Made by a program: the position numbers and the translations under genes
Shown here: positions 38,624-43,838 of the stretch, one piece after another
Layout of the letters: each line of letters starts with the position of its first letter
How positions within the stretch are numbered: position 1 is the first letter of the stretch
Origin: Saccharophagus sp. K07
GTDB lineage: Bacteria; Pseudomonadota; Gammaproteobacteria; Pseudomonadales; Cellvibrionaceae
Reading direction: 5' to 3'
Length of the DNA: 64,000 bases
NCBI RefSeq assembly: GCF_014336955.1
Contig: NZ_QRAI01000001.1
Coordinates: 930,001-994,000 of the forward strand
The notes under the pieces: generated by a model
Told to the model about the DNA's origin: nothing
The model's input: only the letters and a program-made list of their open reading frames with translations
Databases searched by the model: none

Positions 38624-38653
38624 AAAAAATCCCGGCAAATGCCGGGATTTTTT
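38624..38653. terminator. Bidirectional terminator
   Basis: A long stem (AAAATCCCGGCA with TGCCGGGATTTT) with A and T tracts on both sides lies between the methyltransferase (plus) and the CTERM-like gene (minus), touching the latter's stop codon. Confidence 0.9.
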
Positions 38654-38975
38654 AAGTTTTATTTTTGCGATATCTTTCTCGCCGTATGGCAATAGTGCCA
38701 AACAACAGTGAGATCGCAAGAGCGGCGTAAGAGCTGTCAATTTCCGGAACCGAGTGGGGTTTATTGCGTTTGGCTTTTTGTGCCGCTTTTTCCTGAGCTT
38801 TTTTCTTTTTGGCTAAAGCTACAGCATCTCTTTGGCTTTGAGTTGTTTTGGTCTCAAGTTCCACCGCTCTGTTCACTTCATGCTTTGCTGGTTCATCTTC
38901 GATTTCCGCACTATAACTAGGTGCTGCACAGACAAGTGCCAGCGCGATACCTATTATTGTGATGATTTTTTTCAT
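38652..38975 (-). CDS. Small exported protein with CTERM-like C-terminal sorting signal
   Basis: A 107-residue protein. It has a clear signal peptide (MKKIITIIGIALALVCAAPS, cut after SYSA), an acidic then lysine/alanine-rich middle (ALAKKKKAQEKAAQKAKRNK), and a three-part C-terminus: the motif VPEID, a hydrophobic helix of about 17 residues (YAALAISLLFGTIAI) and a basic end RRERYRKNK. That layout is the pattern of exosortase-type sorting signals (PEP-CTERM and relatives; the VPEID variant is the closest I recall). No exosortase gene is in this window. GGGAG precedes the ATG. The protein family itself is not recognised. Confidence 0.7.
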   Translation of the reverse strand: MKKIITIIGIALALVCAAPSYSAEIEDEPAKHEVNRAVELETKTTQSQRDAVALAKKKKAQEKAAQKAKRNKPHSVPEIDSSYAALAISLLFGTIAIRRERYRKNKT

Positions 38976-39215: not shown

Positions 39216-40187
39216 TTATCGCTGATTAATTTGTTGTTCCAGCCACGCCGCTGCACCCACAAATGCCGTTTCCGGATGCACAATCAATTTGGCTGGAATG
39301 GTTTCAACGTAGTGACTCATAACGCCTTTGTTGGCGAATCGCTCGCTAAACTGGCTGGCCAGTAAAAAGTCGGTAAAGCGCGGCAATATGCCGCCCGCTA
39401 TGTAAATACCGCCTTTGGCACCGTAGGTGAGGGCGAGGTTGCCTGCGAATGAACCAGCAAAGCTGCAGAAGGTGGAAAGCGTTTCACCAAAAATGCTGCT
39501 TGAATTGGCAAGTGCTTTTTCGGTGATGTCAGCAGGGGTTACTTCTTCAGCAGTTGTGCCGCGGACAGCTGCAATCGCTTTGTACAGATTGACCAATCCA
39601 GGTCCGGAAATAAACATTTCTGCGGAGACGTGGCCGTGGGAAGCGATTGCGGCCTTGATAACGTCAGCTTCAAATTCTGATGCAGGCGCTATGTTGACGT
39701 GGCCACCTTCGCAGGGAACGGGCAGCCAAGCGCCTTTGTGGTTGACCAAACCTGCAACTCCCAATCCGGTACCTGGACCAAATACGGCCTTTGTTGCAGC
39801 TGTCTCTTCTACGCCGGGTTTGACGGTGACCAAGTGGTCATCGCTCAATTGACTGCACGCTGCAGCGACGGCAGCAAAGTCATTCATGGCCACAAAGTGT
39901 TCGAATCCAAATTCTTTTGCCATGGCAATGCAGGAGAATTCCCAGCTGAGGTTAGTCATGCGAACGGTATCGCTAACGACCGGACCGGCAATCGCCAAAC
40001 AAGCGGATTTTGGTTTTATACCACCCAGCTTTTCGATATAGGTGTGCAGCGCCGCAGAGCAGGTGGGATATTCGCGGCCTTGCAGTACGTGGATATGCTC
40101 GATGATAAAGTTGTTTTGGGTTTTCCCGGTGATCAGGGCGAAGCGCGCGTTGGTTCCACCGATATCAGCGACTATATAGGGATACAT
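39216..40187 (-). CDS. glk: Glucokinase
   Basis: A 323-residue ROK-unrelated (Glk-type) hexokinase-fold enzyme. The phosphate loop is ADIGGTNARFAL at residues 7-18, the catalytic Asp is in AMNDFAAVA, and the second ATP site is FGPGTGLGVAGL. It phosphorylates glucose to glucose 6-phosphate. The ATG at 40187 matches the family N-terminus and has GAGAA 8 bases upstream; an ATG at 40202 is possible. It diverges from the sortase-type response regulator. No sugar transporter or Entner-Doudoroff gene is adjacent. Confidence 0.93.
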   Translation of the reverse strand: MYPYIVADIGGTNARFALITGKTQNNFIIEHIHVLQGREYPTCSAALHTYIEKLGGIKPKSACLAIAGPVVSDTVRMTNLSWEFSCIAMAKEFGFEHFVAMNDFAAVAAACSQLSDDHLVTVKPGVEETAATKAVFGPGTGLGVAGLVNHKGAWLPVPCEGGHVNIAPASEFEADVIKAAIASHGHVSAEMFISGPGLVNLYKAIAAVRGTTAEEVTPADITEKALANSSSIFGETLSTFCSFAGSFAGNLALTYGAKGGIYIAGGILPRFTDFLLASQFSERFANKGVMSHYVETIPAKLIVHPETAFVGAAAWLEQQINQR

Positions 40188-40348
40188 CCTGAGGGTTCTC
40201 ATAAAGGGTTGGAGAAAAGACCGGTCACTCTAGTAAAGCGCCCGATGAGGGTCAAGGCTTGCTCTCTGGTGCGCTTGTGCTTGGTTTAAGGTTGGCGCGA
40301 ATGGATCGCTGGCGTAGCATGGCGATTTTTGTTCTACAGGGCGAGATC

Positions 40349-41038
40349 ATGGCGCGTCATATCGTAATCGTGGAAGATGAACTGGCCATTGCGCAGAACT
40401 ATTGTGATGCGCTGCGGCGTCAGGGGTACAAAGTTTCCCATTACCGCAGCCGGGCCGAGGCCATGGAACAATTTGCCGTTCGCTTGCCGGATCTGGCGAT
40501 CATTGACGTCGGCCTCGGCGACGAACCCGAAGGTGGTTTCGACCTGTGCCGCGATTTGCGCAGCCGCGCGCCGGAACTGCCCATTATTTTCCTCACCGCA
40601 CGCGATGACGATTTCGACGTGGTGTCAGGCTTGCGTCTCGGCGCCGATGATTACCTGAGCAAGGACATAGGACAGGCACATTTGATGGCGCGCATAACCG
40701 CGCTGTTTCGCCGGGTAGATGCTCTGCGCAAACCTGCGACTGTCGAACAGGTTCTCCAGCGCGGTTTACTCACCATCAATATCGAACGTATGGCCGTGCT
40801 GTGGCGCGATCAGCCGGTTGATCTGACGGTCACAGAGTTCTGGATCGTTCATTCGCTGGCTTTGCATCCGGGGCACGTAAAAAATCGTCAGCAGTTGATG
40901 GACGCAGCCAACGTCGTGCTCGACGACAACACCATTACCTCGCATATCAAACGCATCAGGCGCAAATTCAAAACGCTGGATGACGGCTTTGATCAGATCC
41001 AGACCGCCTATGGCATGGGCTATCGCTGGGTGATCTAA
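40349..41038 (+). CDS. pdsR: Response regulator of the proteobacterial dedicated sortase system type
   Basis: A 229-residue OmpR-like regulator. The receiver has Asp53 in LAIIDVGLGDEPEGGFDLC, with switch Thr in FLTARDDD and Lys in YLSKDIG. The C-terminal winged helix ends in NTITSHIKRIRRKFK and AYGMGYRWV. The overall reading, including DVGLGDEPEGGFD, matches the regulators named for the marine/proteobacterial dedicated sortase system. The kinase gene starts directly after its stop. No sortase or sortase substrate lies in the window, so the name is by resemblance. AGGG about 8 bases upstream supports ATG 40349. Confidence 0.72.
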   Translation: MARHIVIVEDELAIAQNYCDALRRQGYKVSHYRSRAEAMEQFAVRLPDLAIIDVGLGDEPEGGFDLCRDLRSRAPELPIIFLTARDDDFDVVSGLRLGADDYLSKDIGQAHLMARITALFRRVDALRKPATVEQVLQRGLLTINIERMAVLWRDQPVDLTVTEFWIVHSLALHPGHVKNRQQLMDAANVVLDDNTITSHIKRIRRKFKTLDDGFDQIQTAYGMGYRWVI

Positions 41039-43027
41039 ATGGCTCTGCGCCGCCAATTATTGCTGGTTGCCTCTCTCACACTGGCTTTGCCTTGGGCGGG
41101 ATGTGAATACGTTAAGGAAATGGAAGCCAGTTTGCGCCAAGGGCAGGAGGCAGCGCTGACGGCAACGGTTCAGGCGGTGTCAGCCCGCATTCTCACCGAT
41201 CCCCAGTTAACAGTCGCGCTGGCAAACAGCGTTGAAAGTCTGGCTCAACATGGATCGGACAATGTCATCTACGCCCATTTGCAGCAAAGTCCGGTGGTGC
41301 TGGACGGATACGATGATGAGTGGCGCAATTCAGGAATCCCTTGGCAGAGCCTTTCGCCGCAGATCAAAACCGCCTGGGGTGCACGCGATGAGCAACTCTT
41401 CGGCTATATCCAGGTTGCGGATTCCGACCGCCAGTTTTTTGATCCCTCACTATCGCACACATCGGCTGATCACGTGGTGATCGGCTTAAGCGGTCAAGAC
41501 GCATTGCGTTTTTTCTCGGCGGCACCCGGTGTTTTATCGGTGGAACGGCATTTGGGGGAGGGAGTGTGGCAACGGGAACACAGGGCTGTGGGGGTGTGGA
41601 ATGAGCAGGTGTCGTCTTACGCCATTGAAGTGCGCTTGCCGCTGTCCTGGGCGCAGCAGGGCATCAGTATTGACGCGCACGATGGCGCTTCCGCATCTTC
41701 ACTTGAGTCTCGTGAACTACATGCACTGGTGCAAAATGAGCGGATTTACGATGAGGCTCTGTCCATCTTTGCACGCCCAGGAATACGGTTGTCATTGGTT
41801 GCGGAAGATGGATGGTTGCTAGGCCGTTCAGGCGAAGTGCTGTTTCGCCACCAAATCCAAGAACGAGCAAGCTTTTCCCATTGGCTATTGCGCCGCATCC
41901 TGGGCCAACCCGATTTTCCCCGCTTGCCGGATCAGGAAATTAATGGCCGCTTGAATGGCATATCGAGCACAGCGTCCCTGAATGAAACAGCCTGGTATAT
42001 CTGGTCGGATTCGCTCCTAGGACGGGTTGCCTTGCCGTTGGAGTTGTTGGGAAAACAGGACTCACCCCGACTATGGCTGGTAGCAGAGCAGACTATGGAC
42101 TCCCTGGAAGCTCTTACCTCTGGCGCTATGGGGCGACTGTTGTGGTATACAACCGTTGCTATGGTCTTGAGCGGCGCGGCGCTTTTGGCTTATGCGAGTG
42201 TGTTGTCCTGGCGGATCCGCCGGCTCAGCCGCGCCGCCCAGCAAGCGGTCGACAGTGACGGACGAATTCGCGGCAACCTGCCCAGCGGGCGCAGCTCTGA
42301 CGAGATAGGCGATTTAGCCAGAAGCTTTGCCGCGCTCCTGCAACGCTTGCGCGAGTACAACGAATATCTGGAAAGCTTGGCCAGCAAACTGTCGCATGAG
42401 TTGCGCACGCCCTTGGCCATAGTGCGGAGTTCTCTCGATAACCTCGAGCAAATCAATGACAGCGGAGAGCAGCGGGTTTATATCGAGCGCGCCAGCGAAG
42501 GAGCTTCCCGTCTGTCCAAATTGCTCAATGCCATGAGCGCCGCGGCGCGCCTTGAACAAACCCTTCAGCATAGTGAATTTGAAGAAGTGGATCTGGCGGA
42601 ATTGCTAGAGCATCTCGCCGCCAGCTATAGCAGTGTTTATGCACCCCGCAACATTTCATATGTCGTTGTGGGTGAGAGACCTATGCGCATCCGCGTGGCC
42701 CCGGAGTTGATCGCGCAGTTATGCGACAAACTGGTTGAAAACGCGGCGGACTTTACGGGGGATCACGGCCTTATTGAGCTGCACCTGAGCCGCCACGCCA
42801 ACGAACTATGTTTGCGAGTAATCAACACCGGACCTCCCTTGCCGGAATCACTGCAGGACCGGATTTTCGATTCGCTGACCTCATCCCGGGCCGGAGACGG
42901 TCAACATCTGGGATTGGGCCTGCACGTGGTTAAGATGATTGTCCGCTTTCACAAAGGCAAAGTCCGCGCGTTCAATCTTGCAGAAGAGCAGAAGGTGGTA
43001 TTTGAGGTGGTGTTGCCGTTGGCCTGA
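41039..43027 (+). CDS. pdsS: Sensor histidine kinase of the dedicated sortase system type, with CBM9/DOMON-like sensor
   Basis: A 662-residue kinase. After an N-terminal helix, a large periplasmic region of about 330 residues contains LDGYDDEW near residue 91, the start typical of carbohydrate-binding family 9/DOMON-like domains. A second membrane helix lies at about 363-386, then a HAMP linker, HisKA with His453 in LSHELRTPLAIV, and an ATPase domain (LVENAADF; LGLGLHVVKMIVRFHKG). The layout matches kinases paired with dedicated-sortase regulators. The ATG follows the regulator stop with no gap. It ends opposite bfr. The ligand is unknown, and a sugar-like ligand is a guess from the domain. 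Confidence 0.75.
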   Translation: MALRRQLLLVASLTLALPWAGCEYVKEMEASLRQGQEAALTATVQAVSARILTDPQLTVALANSVESLAQHGSDNVIYAHLQQSPVVLDGYDDEWRNSGIPWQSLSPQIKTAWGARDEQLFGYIQVADSDRQFFDPSLSHTSADHVVIGLSGQDALRFFSAAPGVLSVERHLGEGVWQREHRAVGVWNEQVSSYAIEVRLPLSWAQQGISIDAHDGASASSLESRELHALVQNERIYDEALSIFARPGIRLSLVAEDGWLLGRSGEVLFRHQIQERASFSHWLLRRILGQPDFPRLPDQEINGRLNGISSTASLNETAWYIWSDSLLGRVALPLELLGKQDSPRLWLVAEQTMDSLEALTSGAMGRLLWYTTVAMVLSGAALLAYASVLSWRIRRLSRAAQQAVDSDGRIRGNLPSGRSSDEIGDLARSFAALLQRLREYNEYLESLASKLSHELRTPLAIVRSSLDNLEQINDSGEQRVYIERASEGASRLSKLLNAMSAAARLEQTLQHSEFEEVDLAELLEHLAASYSSVYAPRNISYVVVGERPMRIRVAPELIAQLCDKLVENAADFTGDHGLIELHLSRHANELCLRVINTGPPLPESLQDRIFDSLTSSRAGDGQHLGLGLHVVKMIVRFHKGKVRAFNLAEEQKVVFEVVLPLA

Positions 43028-43049: not shown

Positions 43050-43523
43050 TCACGAGCTGCCCATTTTCGACTGGAGATAATTTTCCAGAGTAACCTTGTC
43101 GATCAAGCTCAACTGGGTTTCCAACCAGTCCACATGCTCTTCCTCGGAGGTGAGGATGCTCTCCAGGATTTCGCGCGAGCCGTAATCTCTGACCGATTCA
43201 CAATAGGCGATGGCTTCGCGCAGGTCTGGAATCGCTTTTAGTTCAAGCGTCAGGTCGCACTGCAACATTTCTTTGACGTTTTCCCCGATCAACAGCTTGC
43301 CGAGGTTTTGCAAGTTGGGGATGCCATCCAAAAACAAAATACGCTCCACCAGCTTGTCGGCGTGCTTCATCTCATCGATGGACTCGTGGTACTCGTGATC
43401 TGCCAGCTCTTTGAGTCCCCAGTTTTTGTACATGCGCGCATGCAAAAAATACTGGTTAATGGCAATCAATTCGTTGGCGAGGATTTTGTTGAGGTGTTCT
43501 ATGACTTTGGCGTCGCCTTTCAT
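43050..43523 (-). CDS. bfr: Bacterioferritin
   Basis: A 157-residue four-helix ferritin with all key residues: Glu18, Glu51, His54, Glu127 and His130 (in SEEEHVDW) for the di-iron site, and Met52 as haem ligand. Twenty-four subunits form a shell that stores iron as ferric mineral. GGGGA lies about 7 bases before the ATG at 43523; an upstream frame to 43586 has no family counterpart. It follows bfd on the same strand after 120 bases, and Bfd reduces the stored iron for release. Confidence 0.95.
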
Positions 43524-43643
43524 AATCGGATCCCCGTGTTTTTGGGCGTAACGGGGAAGTTTGGCGACGAACGCAGATGCTGTCAAACGCTGCTTATAAC
43601 AGCCTTATTTTGCTGAAGGAGGGAAGGGGATAAGCTTTACAGC

Positions 43644-43838
43644 TTACGCCATTACCCAAAATACCCCAGCAGATGATGATTCTTGGCAGGAGCGAACAAT
43701 GTCTTTGGTGAGGCAGGCGCATTTGCCACATTCGGTCATAACGCCTAATTGATCGCGGATTTCACGTACTGAAGCACCATTTTCTGCCGCTGTGCGGATT
43801 TGGCTGTCAGTGACCCCTTTACAAAGACATACGTACAT
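43644..43838 (-). CDS. bfd: Bacterioferritin-associated ferredoxin Bfd
   Basis: A 64-residue [2Fe-2S] protein. The four cluster cysteines are Cys4 and Cys6 (MYVCLCKG) and the C-x-x-C pair in TECGKC. Bfd docks on bacterioferritin and passes electrons in to free iron. The ATG at 43838, with GGTGG 6 bases upstream, gives the standard MYVCLC start. A Fur-like box lies about 37 bases upstream, which fits induction under iron shortage. The C-terminus is slightly longer and more hydrophobic than usual. Confidence 0.92.
   Translation of the reverse strand: MYVCLCKGVTDSQIRTAAENGASVREIRDQLGVMTECGKCACLTKDIVRSCQESSSAGVFWVMA

Follow-up and report, generated by a model that had tools for sequence, protein, structure and literature searches.

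A PdsSR-type two-component pair without a detected sortase in Saccharophagus sp. K07 and its candidate role in envelope protection

In Pseudomonas aeruginosa, the two-component system CreBC is activated by loss of penicillin-binding protein 4 (PBP4) and drives creD, a tightly controlled CreBC target (PMC5402928, PMC2654508). BlrAB of Aeromonas drives beta-lactamases and is activated by beta-lactams or by PBP4 loss (PMC3660660). One report describes Shewanella oneidensis as having homologues of neither CreBC nor VbrKR, and proposes an unknown two-component system for its beta-lactamase blaA (PMC5786531); for Shewanella algae, a review ties pdsS and pdsO to beta-lactam resistance (PMC12114352). 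PdsR and PdsS are otherwise labelled as regulators of a dedicated sortase system, the title of the regulator model TIGR03787 being 'proteobacterial dedicated sortase system response regulator'. The model names place such regulators also on genomes without a detected sortase, among them that of Saccharophagus sp. K07 (Pseudomonadales; Cellvibrionaceae), of which we analysed a stretch of 64,000 nucleotides (NCBI RefSeq assembly GCF_014336955.1, contig NZ_QRAI01000001.1, positions 930,001 to 994,000; hereafter the window) that holds a regulator gene and a kinase gene of the pdsRS type (Table 1). Our results suggest that this pair probably serves as an alarm for envelope damage, and not as a switch dedicated to a sortase, since a sortase was not found and a predicted regulator box points to genes of cell-wall and envelope protection. 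Genomes, contigs, loci and families are designated below by our own handles (G, C, L and f), the Saccharophagus genome being G000 of family f1.

Identity of the pair and absence of a sortase

The initial annotation, made from the letters of the window alone, had read the two genes as orphan regulators of the dedicated sortase type, lying between glk and bfr with no sortase beside them, and this observation was borne out, the family assignment included. The regulator is a member of the PdsR family, scoring 394.7 bits against TIGR03787 (cut-off 335.7); it consists of a receiver domain (Response_reg), in which Asp53 was located by counting on the sequence, and a winged-helix domain (Trans_reg_C). 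The runner-up model is CreB (NF008296) with 181.5 bits, which misses its cut-off of 273. Among 59 aligned regulators, the recognition-helix form DDNTITSHIKRIRRKF ranks second in frequency, with seven occurrences, and is one K/R change away from the commonest form, which occurs in eight. For the kinase the assignment stands as a best match only: TIGR03785 gives 523.7 bits and leads every other model by 386 bits, yet the score lies below the cut-off of 612.2. Its runner-up is CreC (NF008312) with 137.5 bits, again under the cut-off (356). A plain OmpR/EnvZ family does not score better, as the OmpR model gives the regulator 110.0 bits, far below its TIGR03787 score, and the EnvZ model gives the kinase 64.1 bits. 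The locus thus shares with the PdsR/PdsS system a regulator over the cut-off, the best match of the kinase, the gene order and an alignable sensor, but differs from it in the kinase score and in the lack of a detected sortase and substrate. A search for related loci with the kinase returned one distant match in Bacteroidales, of 22% identity and confined to the kinase core.

The missed cut-off was considered against a sample of 194 genomes of the order, in which the kinase was called at E <= 1e-60 and the sortase (TIGR03784) at E <= 1e-10. Of the 74 genomes with a kinase match, only 8 have a score above the TIGR03785 cut-off, and kinases adjacent to a sortase can also fall below it, as in G127 (596.9 bits). 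The six highest scores (788-850 bits; loci L056-L061, family f44) are found in genomes where TIGR03784 has no match at the threshold used, and therefore the cut-off does not split sortase-bearing from sortase-less genomes.

No sortase was found elsewhere in the Saccharophagus genome, which comprises 4.27 Mb in 19 contigs and is rated 100% complete and 0.11% contaminated. Neither the marine sortase model TIGR03784 nor the sortase family PF04203 has a match at E <= 1, and the suggestion of the initial annotation that the sortase genes lie at another place is not supported. A true LPXTG-type substrate gene was likewise not found with TIGR03788, whose sole match has 17.7 bits (cut-off 551.65) and is, by eye, a vWA-type protein. 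A pdsO-like gene is present at C1:667457-668134; it scores 85.1 bits against TIGR03789 (PdsO, cut-off 152.2) and 86.6 bits against the YiaD model.

Orphan PdsSR pairs are common in the order, and not odd. The kinase is present in 74 of the 194 genomes and the sortase in 45, or 43 once two weak matches (G031, G068) are dropped. Among the kinase-bearing genomes 39 have a sortase and 35 do not, while only 4 of the 43 sortase genomes are without the kinase (Fisher p 5e-16 for the association); a second count, from which 11 weaker kinase matches (<= 308.5 bits) were dropped, gave 38 with and 25 without a sortase. The sortase is therefore nearly always accompanied by the pair, and the pair is often without the sortase. 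We collected the neighbourhoods of 61 kinases, comprising the window and 60 of the other 73 kinase genomes, with 13 of the 74 lying outside the set; a sortase cluster occurs in 23 of them, the substrate gene in 24 and a PdsO cluster in 18. The sortase label needs nine changes on a quick tree of the 61 kinases, in which the kinase of the window groups with that of the sortase-less G118, a long branch whose placement is unsure.

A direct-repeat box associated with the pair

A motif search upstream of pdsR recovered a 24-bp motif, GATCAATTGTGATGAATTGTGGCA, which is built of 10-bp direct repeats and is present in 35 of 56 regions. Its log-likelihood was 654.6, compared with 104-115 in ten shuffled sets, which were searched from somewhat fewer starts than the real set. 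The box follows the kinase across whole genomes: the 20-bp core at no more than one mismatch was found in 46 of the 74 kinase-positive and 6 of the 120 kinase-negative genomes (p 1e-18), and the perfect core in 27 and 1 of them, respectively, these counts and the p value being uncorrected for relatedness. A reversed-pattern control gave 12 sites in the genomes of the order against 85 for the core (our own count). The kinase-positive genomes contain 79 core sites, of which 54 are close to the start of pdsR, the substrate gene or pdsO (8 at pdsR, 17 shared by pdsR and the substrate gene, 10 at the substrate gene and 19 at pdsO), 23 lie elsewhere, and 2 fall outside the fetched loci. Sites at those sortase operons and pdsO genes that are distant from pdsRS did not belong to the training set of the motif and are independent of it. 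Class-wide, the core pattern occurs in 27 of 369 genomes, and pdsR, pdsO and the substrate gene are again frequent places for it.

The orientation of the box is fixed with respect to the gene that follows. At matches of at least 16 bits its strand is opposite to the gene at all 35 substrate-type genes and all 27 pdsO genes; box and gene share a strand in 33 of 34 cases at pdsR, the lone exception being a 17.1-bit match inside the coding frame of G118. The fraction of genes carrying a box is biased, because many loci were fetched on account of the box; the orientation should not be. Two of the 35 substrate-type genes are vWA-only genes of about 282 amino acids in the sortase-less genomes G034 and G128 (L221 4111-4959 and L222 4568-5413), each with a box upstream; from their similarity to the sortase substrate, they are possible remnants of the substrate gene. 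As an order-wide marker the PdsO model was uninformative at E <= 1e-10, where it matches all 194 genomes, because any OmpA domain matches it.

Among the six other regulators that share the recognition helix of the window's regulator, five carry the box at their own pdsR, and the sixth (G057) carries it at pdsO and at the substrate gene. The box differs from the cre/blr tag TTCACnnnnnnTTCAC as published in PMC3660660. Upstream of pdsR that tag occurs exactly in 0 of 56 regions and with at most one mismatch in 2 of 56; it is absent at this tolerance from the six target promoters checked, and in the window it occurs at chance level. Our literature searches on PdsR/PdsS/PdsO, dedicated sortases and sortase/two-component systems, on which this statement rests, returned no description of a PdsR box or regulon.

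Predicted targets and proposed function

In the Saccharophagus genome the core at no more than three mismatches has 24 sites, against 10 for the reversed control, and four sites score at least 20 bits with the matrix, a level at which random sequence gave no site in 4 Mb on one strand. Two boxes are in promoter position, at C6:18419-18442 (23.9 bits) and C1:668272-668295 (24.2 bits). The latter is upstream of the pdsO-like OmpA gene. The former stands before an alpha-2-macroglobulin gene, at a distance of about 62 bp; the product of this gene is lipoprotein-like and has ten Pfam matches of alpha-2-macroglobulin architecture, and the next gene encodes PBP1C (753.3 bits, cut-off 494.2). In Escherichia coli, yfhM and pbp1C (ECAM-PBP1C) often lie in one operon, which is proposed to serve wall defence and repair (PMC4498604). 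The same arrangement is seen here, an alpha-2-macroglobulin with a thioester-type CLEQ motif being followed by PBP1C. The Saccharophagus operon differs in being preceded by a PdsR box, and to our knowledge no link of the yfhM-pbpC operon to PdsR has been described, our literature search on this operon not having been aimed at PdsR. The box would thus tie a proposed defence and repair module (PMC4498604) to a named sensor, and it supports the other alternative of the initial annotation, that the pair controls something else than a sortase. Two tandem genes lie just upstream of the alpha-2-macroglobulin gene (L163 9522-10256 and 10432-11169); the first matches Porin_7, and the second looks alike by eye.

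Similar sites are found in other genomes. The box precedes an alpha-2-macroglobulin gene in four families, at 81 bp in G151 (f28), 92 bp in G465 (f63) and 77 bp in G358 (f206) in addition to the Saccharophagus genome. The creD gene is preceded by a box in G491 (about 60 bp) and G358 (57 bp), and the two genes score 482 and 451 bits against PF06123. In G071 the box is found at two places before class D beta-lactamase genes, at 75 and 117 bp, and the two genes score 274 and 276 bits against NF012161 (cut-off 250).

We propose, with moderate confidence, that the pair is a CreBC-like envelope-stress system, PdsSR, which includes the sortase only in some species. The kinase would sense a disturbance of the envelope or the peptidoglycan through a periplasmic domain of the CBM9/Cache type and would phosphorylate PdsR at Asp53. 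PdsR would then bind the direct repeats of 10 bp, which mostly lie some 50-140 bp ahead of the target genes and in one fixed orientation, and activate these genes. The predicted targets are, in this genome, the alpha-2-macroglobulin/PBP1C operon, which may combine a protease trap with wall repair, and the pdsO-like OmpA protein; elsewhere, the sortase operon and pdsO would be among them, as would creD and class D beta-lactamases. PdsSR would in this way work like CreBC/BlrAB, with a box of its own. The likeness to CreBC/BlrAB lies in CreB and CreC being the closest other models, in the box at creD and class D beta-lactamases in some relatives and in a theme linked to penicillin-binding proteins; the differences are the missed CreB and CreC cut-offs and the CBM9/Cache-like sensor. 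A broader form of the proposal, which we advance only tentatively, is that PdsSR is a widespread and overlooked counterpart of CreBC/BlrAB that responds to peptidoglycan damage and governs a wall-defence regulon of pdsO, the sortase with its substrate, alpha-2-macroglobulin/PBP1C, creD and class D beta-lactamases, in which case the name 'dedicated sortase' would be a mislabel taken from one optional target, and the pair could be the blaA switch of S. oneidensis. The box and its predicted regulon turn the sortase label into a testable hypothesis of envelope-damage sensing, and make PdsSR a candidate for the two-component system proposed behind beta-lactamase induction in that CreBC-less bacterium (PMC5786531).

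Several observations weigh against these proposals. The pdsR promoter of the window itself has no box, the best score in the 220 bp upstream being -7.0, and 28 of the 74 kinase-positive genomes, 23 of them sortase-less, have no box when one mismatch is allowed. Of the 33 best-scoring pdsO-like genes (>= 92 bits), only 14 have a box within 400 bp. The beta-lactamase sites come from a single genome (G071); the pair was not located in G491, where our view was confined to the sortase and creD loci, and is not established for G358. In P. aeruginosa, CreBC-dependent resistance did not proceed via ampC expression (PMC2654508), so that CreBC itself is no simple beta-lactamase switch. In eight genomes, five of family f19 and three of f34, the box also stands before a gene for an aminotransferase (L212-L215 and L217-L220, about 70-210 bp upstream), a poor fit to a theme of wall stress; the divergent neighbour is a glutathione peroxidase gene in four of the f19 genomes and msrB in all of the f34 genomes. 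Of the 23 core sites elsewhere, 8 are those at the aminotransferase and 11 have no target labelled by the reference set, one of them being at a GDPD-family gene, and class-wide core matches also fall inside unrelated genes. In the Saccharophagus genome one box of at least 20 bits sits inside a lysA-like decarboxylase gene and another (20.1 bits, L166 near 9075) precedes the likely start of an extracytoplasmic function (ECF) sigma gene by about 400 bp, and hence some box matches may be idle. Judged by eye, the genes after this ECF sigma gene resemble FecR and a receptor.

The pair could instead be a leftover, the sortase operon having been lost and the regulators persisting by inertia or controlling only themselves and pdsO. 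Such a history would suit family f1, in which five kinase-bearing relatives have the sortase apart from pdsRS (about 189 kb away in G189 and G144) and four of them (G015, G144, G168 and G189) carry the box at the sortase operon as well as in front of the pdsO gene lying before pdsRS; it would also suit the kinase tree, where at least six changes of the sortase label are forced by starred branches, and the box kept at the vWA-only, substrate-like gene of G034 and G128. We nevertheless consider it unlikely, as both proteins are full length, the recognition helix is typical of the family, and a box stands in promoter position at the alpha-2-macroglobulin/pbpC operon here and at alpha-2-macroglobulin in three other families.

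Sensor region, neighbouring genes and exosortases

The sensor region was compared in an alignment of 26 sensors, in which the first D of the LDGYDDEW motif is nearly invariant and the W invariant. Over the part that contains the DGYxDxW motif, the profile of the 26 sequences matches a beta-xylanase chain in the PDB (7nwn, E 6.3e-5). Single sensor regions match PF06452 (CBM9_1) in 4 of the 26 cases (best E 2.5e-5) and PF23846 (Cache_WalK) in 7 (best E 3.3e-5), each at E <= 1, and the window's own sensor, searched alone, matches no Pfam model at this threshold. In our reading, the sensor would be a CBM9-like part set within a Cache-like sensor. The CBM9-like part named in the initial annotation is thus upheld through relatives and not by the window's own sequence, and the same applies to its idea of sensing through a sugar, for which there is a likeness at fold level in the relatives alone. 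The matches to Cache_WalK are shared with WalK-type cell-wall sensor kinases, from which the present kinase differs in its extra CBM9-like part and in its score against the WalK model (85.6 bits, cut-off 725). A structure prediction from the single sequence reached a predicted local distance difference test (pLDDT) value of 34, too poor to test the CBM9/Cache reading.

Table 1. Features of the pdsRS locus and its surroundings in the window
Feature	Coordinates	Strand	Basis
Small protein with VPEID-CTERM-like tail, two genes from pdsR	38652-38975	-	22.1 bits, cut-off 33
glk (glucokinase), divergent neighbour; system membership not shown	39216-40202	-	TIGR00749 over cut-off
glk/pdsR intergenic region	40203-40348	.	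No PdsR box; best score upstream of pdsR -7.0
pdsR-type response regulator, OmpR/PhoB fold, 229 aa, Asp53	40349-41038	+	TIGR03787, PF00072, PF00486
Recognition-helix region of the regulator	40922-40969	+	Alignment of 59 regulators; coordinates counted
pdsS-type sensor histidine kinase, 662 aa, abuts pdsR without gap	41039-43027	+	TIGR03785 best; HAMP/HisKA/HATPase_c
Periplasmic sensor region: N-terminal helix, CBM9-like part, Cache-like end	41105-42118	+	Alignment A1 of 26 sensors, profile searches
LDGYDDEW motif in the CBM9-like part	41300-41323	+	26-sensor alignment; coordinates counted
bfr (bacterioferritin), neighbour; system membership not shown	43050-43586	-	TIGR00754 over cut-off

A CBM9-like sensor in the relatives, the divergent position of glk next to pdsR and the response of E. 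coli CreBC to the carbon source (PMC5402928) could be taken to mean that the pair is a carbon-source sensor, serving glk, bfr and a carbohydrate signal. We regard this as improbable. The region upstream of glk has no box of at least 13 bits, and the only box match in the window (43724-43747, near bfr, 16.6 bits) is at chance level, with 38 of 100 shuffles holding one; bfr was rejected as a PdsR target on this ground. Moreover, in the 60 other kinase neighbourhoods no gene clusters with glk, and relatives of bfr occur in one (G058).

The small protein two genes from pdsR would, in turn, be the substrate if the pair had been re-employed for exosortase E/VPEID-CTERM sorting, to which we assign a very low probability. 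Beyond its tail, the genome encodes an exosortase E over the cut-off (243.6 bits, cut-off 150) and two more VPEID-tailed small proteins, one beside exosortase E (L003) and one at C2:123055, so that there are three such proteins, each below the cut-off. All three genomes with exosortase E (E <= 1e-30, among the 194) also have the kinase, a co-occurrence of little weight because the kinase is present in 74 of the 194. Against this reading, no box of at least 13 bits was found at the VPEID gene of the window, at exosortase E or at any other VPEID locus, on which account exosortase E/VPEID-CTERM was rejected as a substitute target, and a pattern search of the kinase neighbourhoods collected for G098 and G173 showed no VPEID-tailed gene. 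The genome also contains a second exosortase, XrtD of the VPLPA-CTERM type, at C3:291976-292716 (508.1 bits, cut-off 400).

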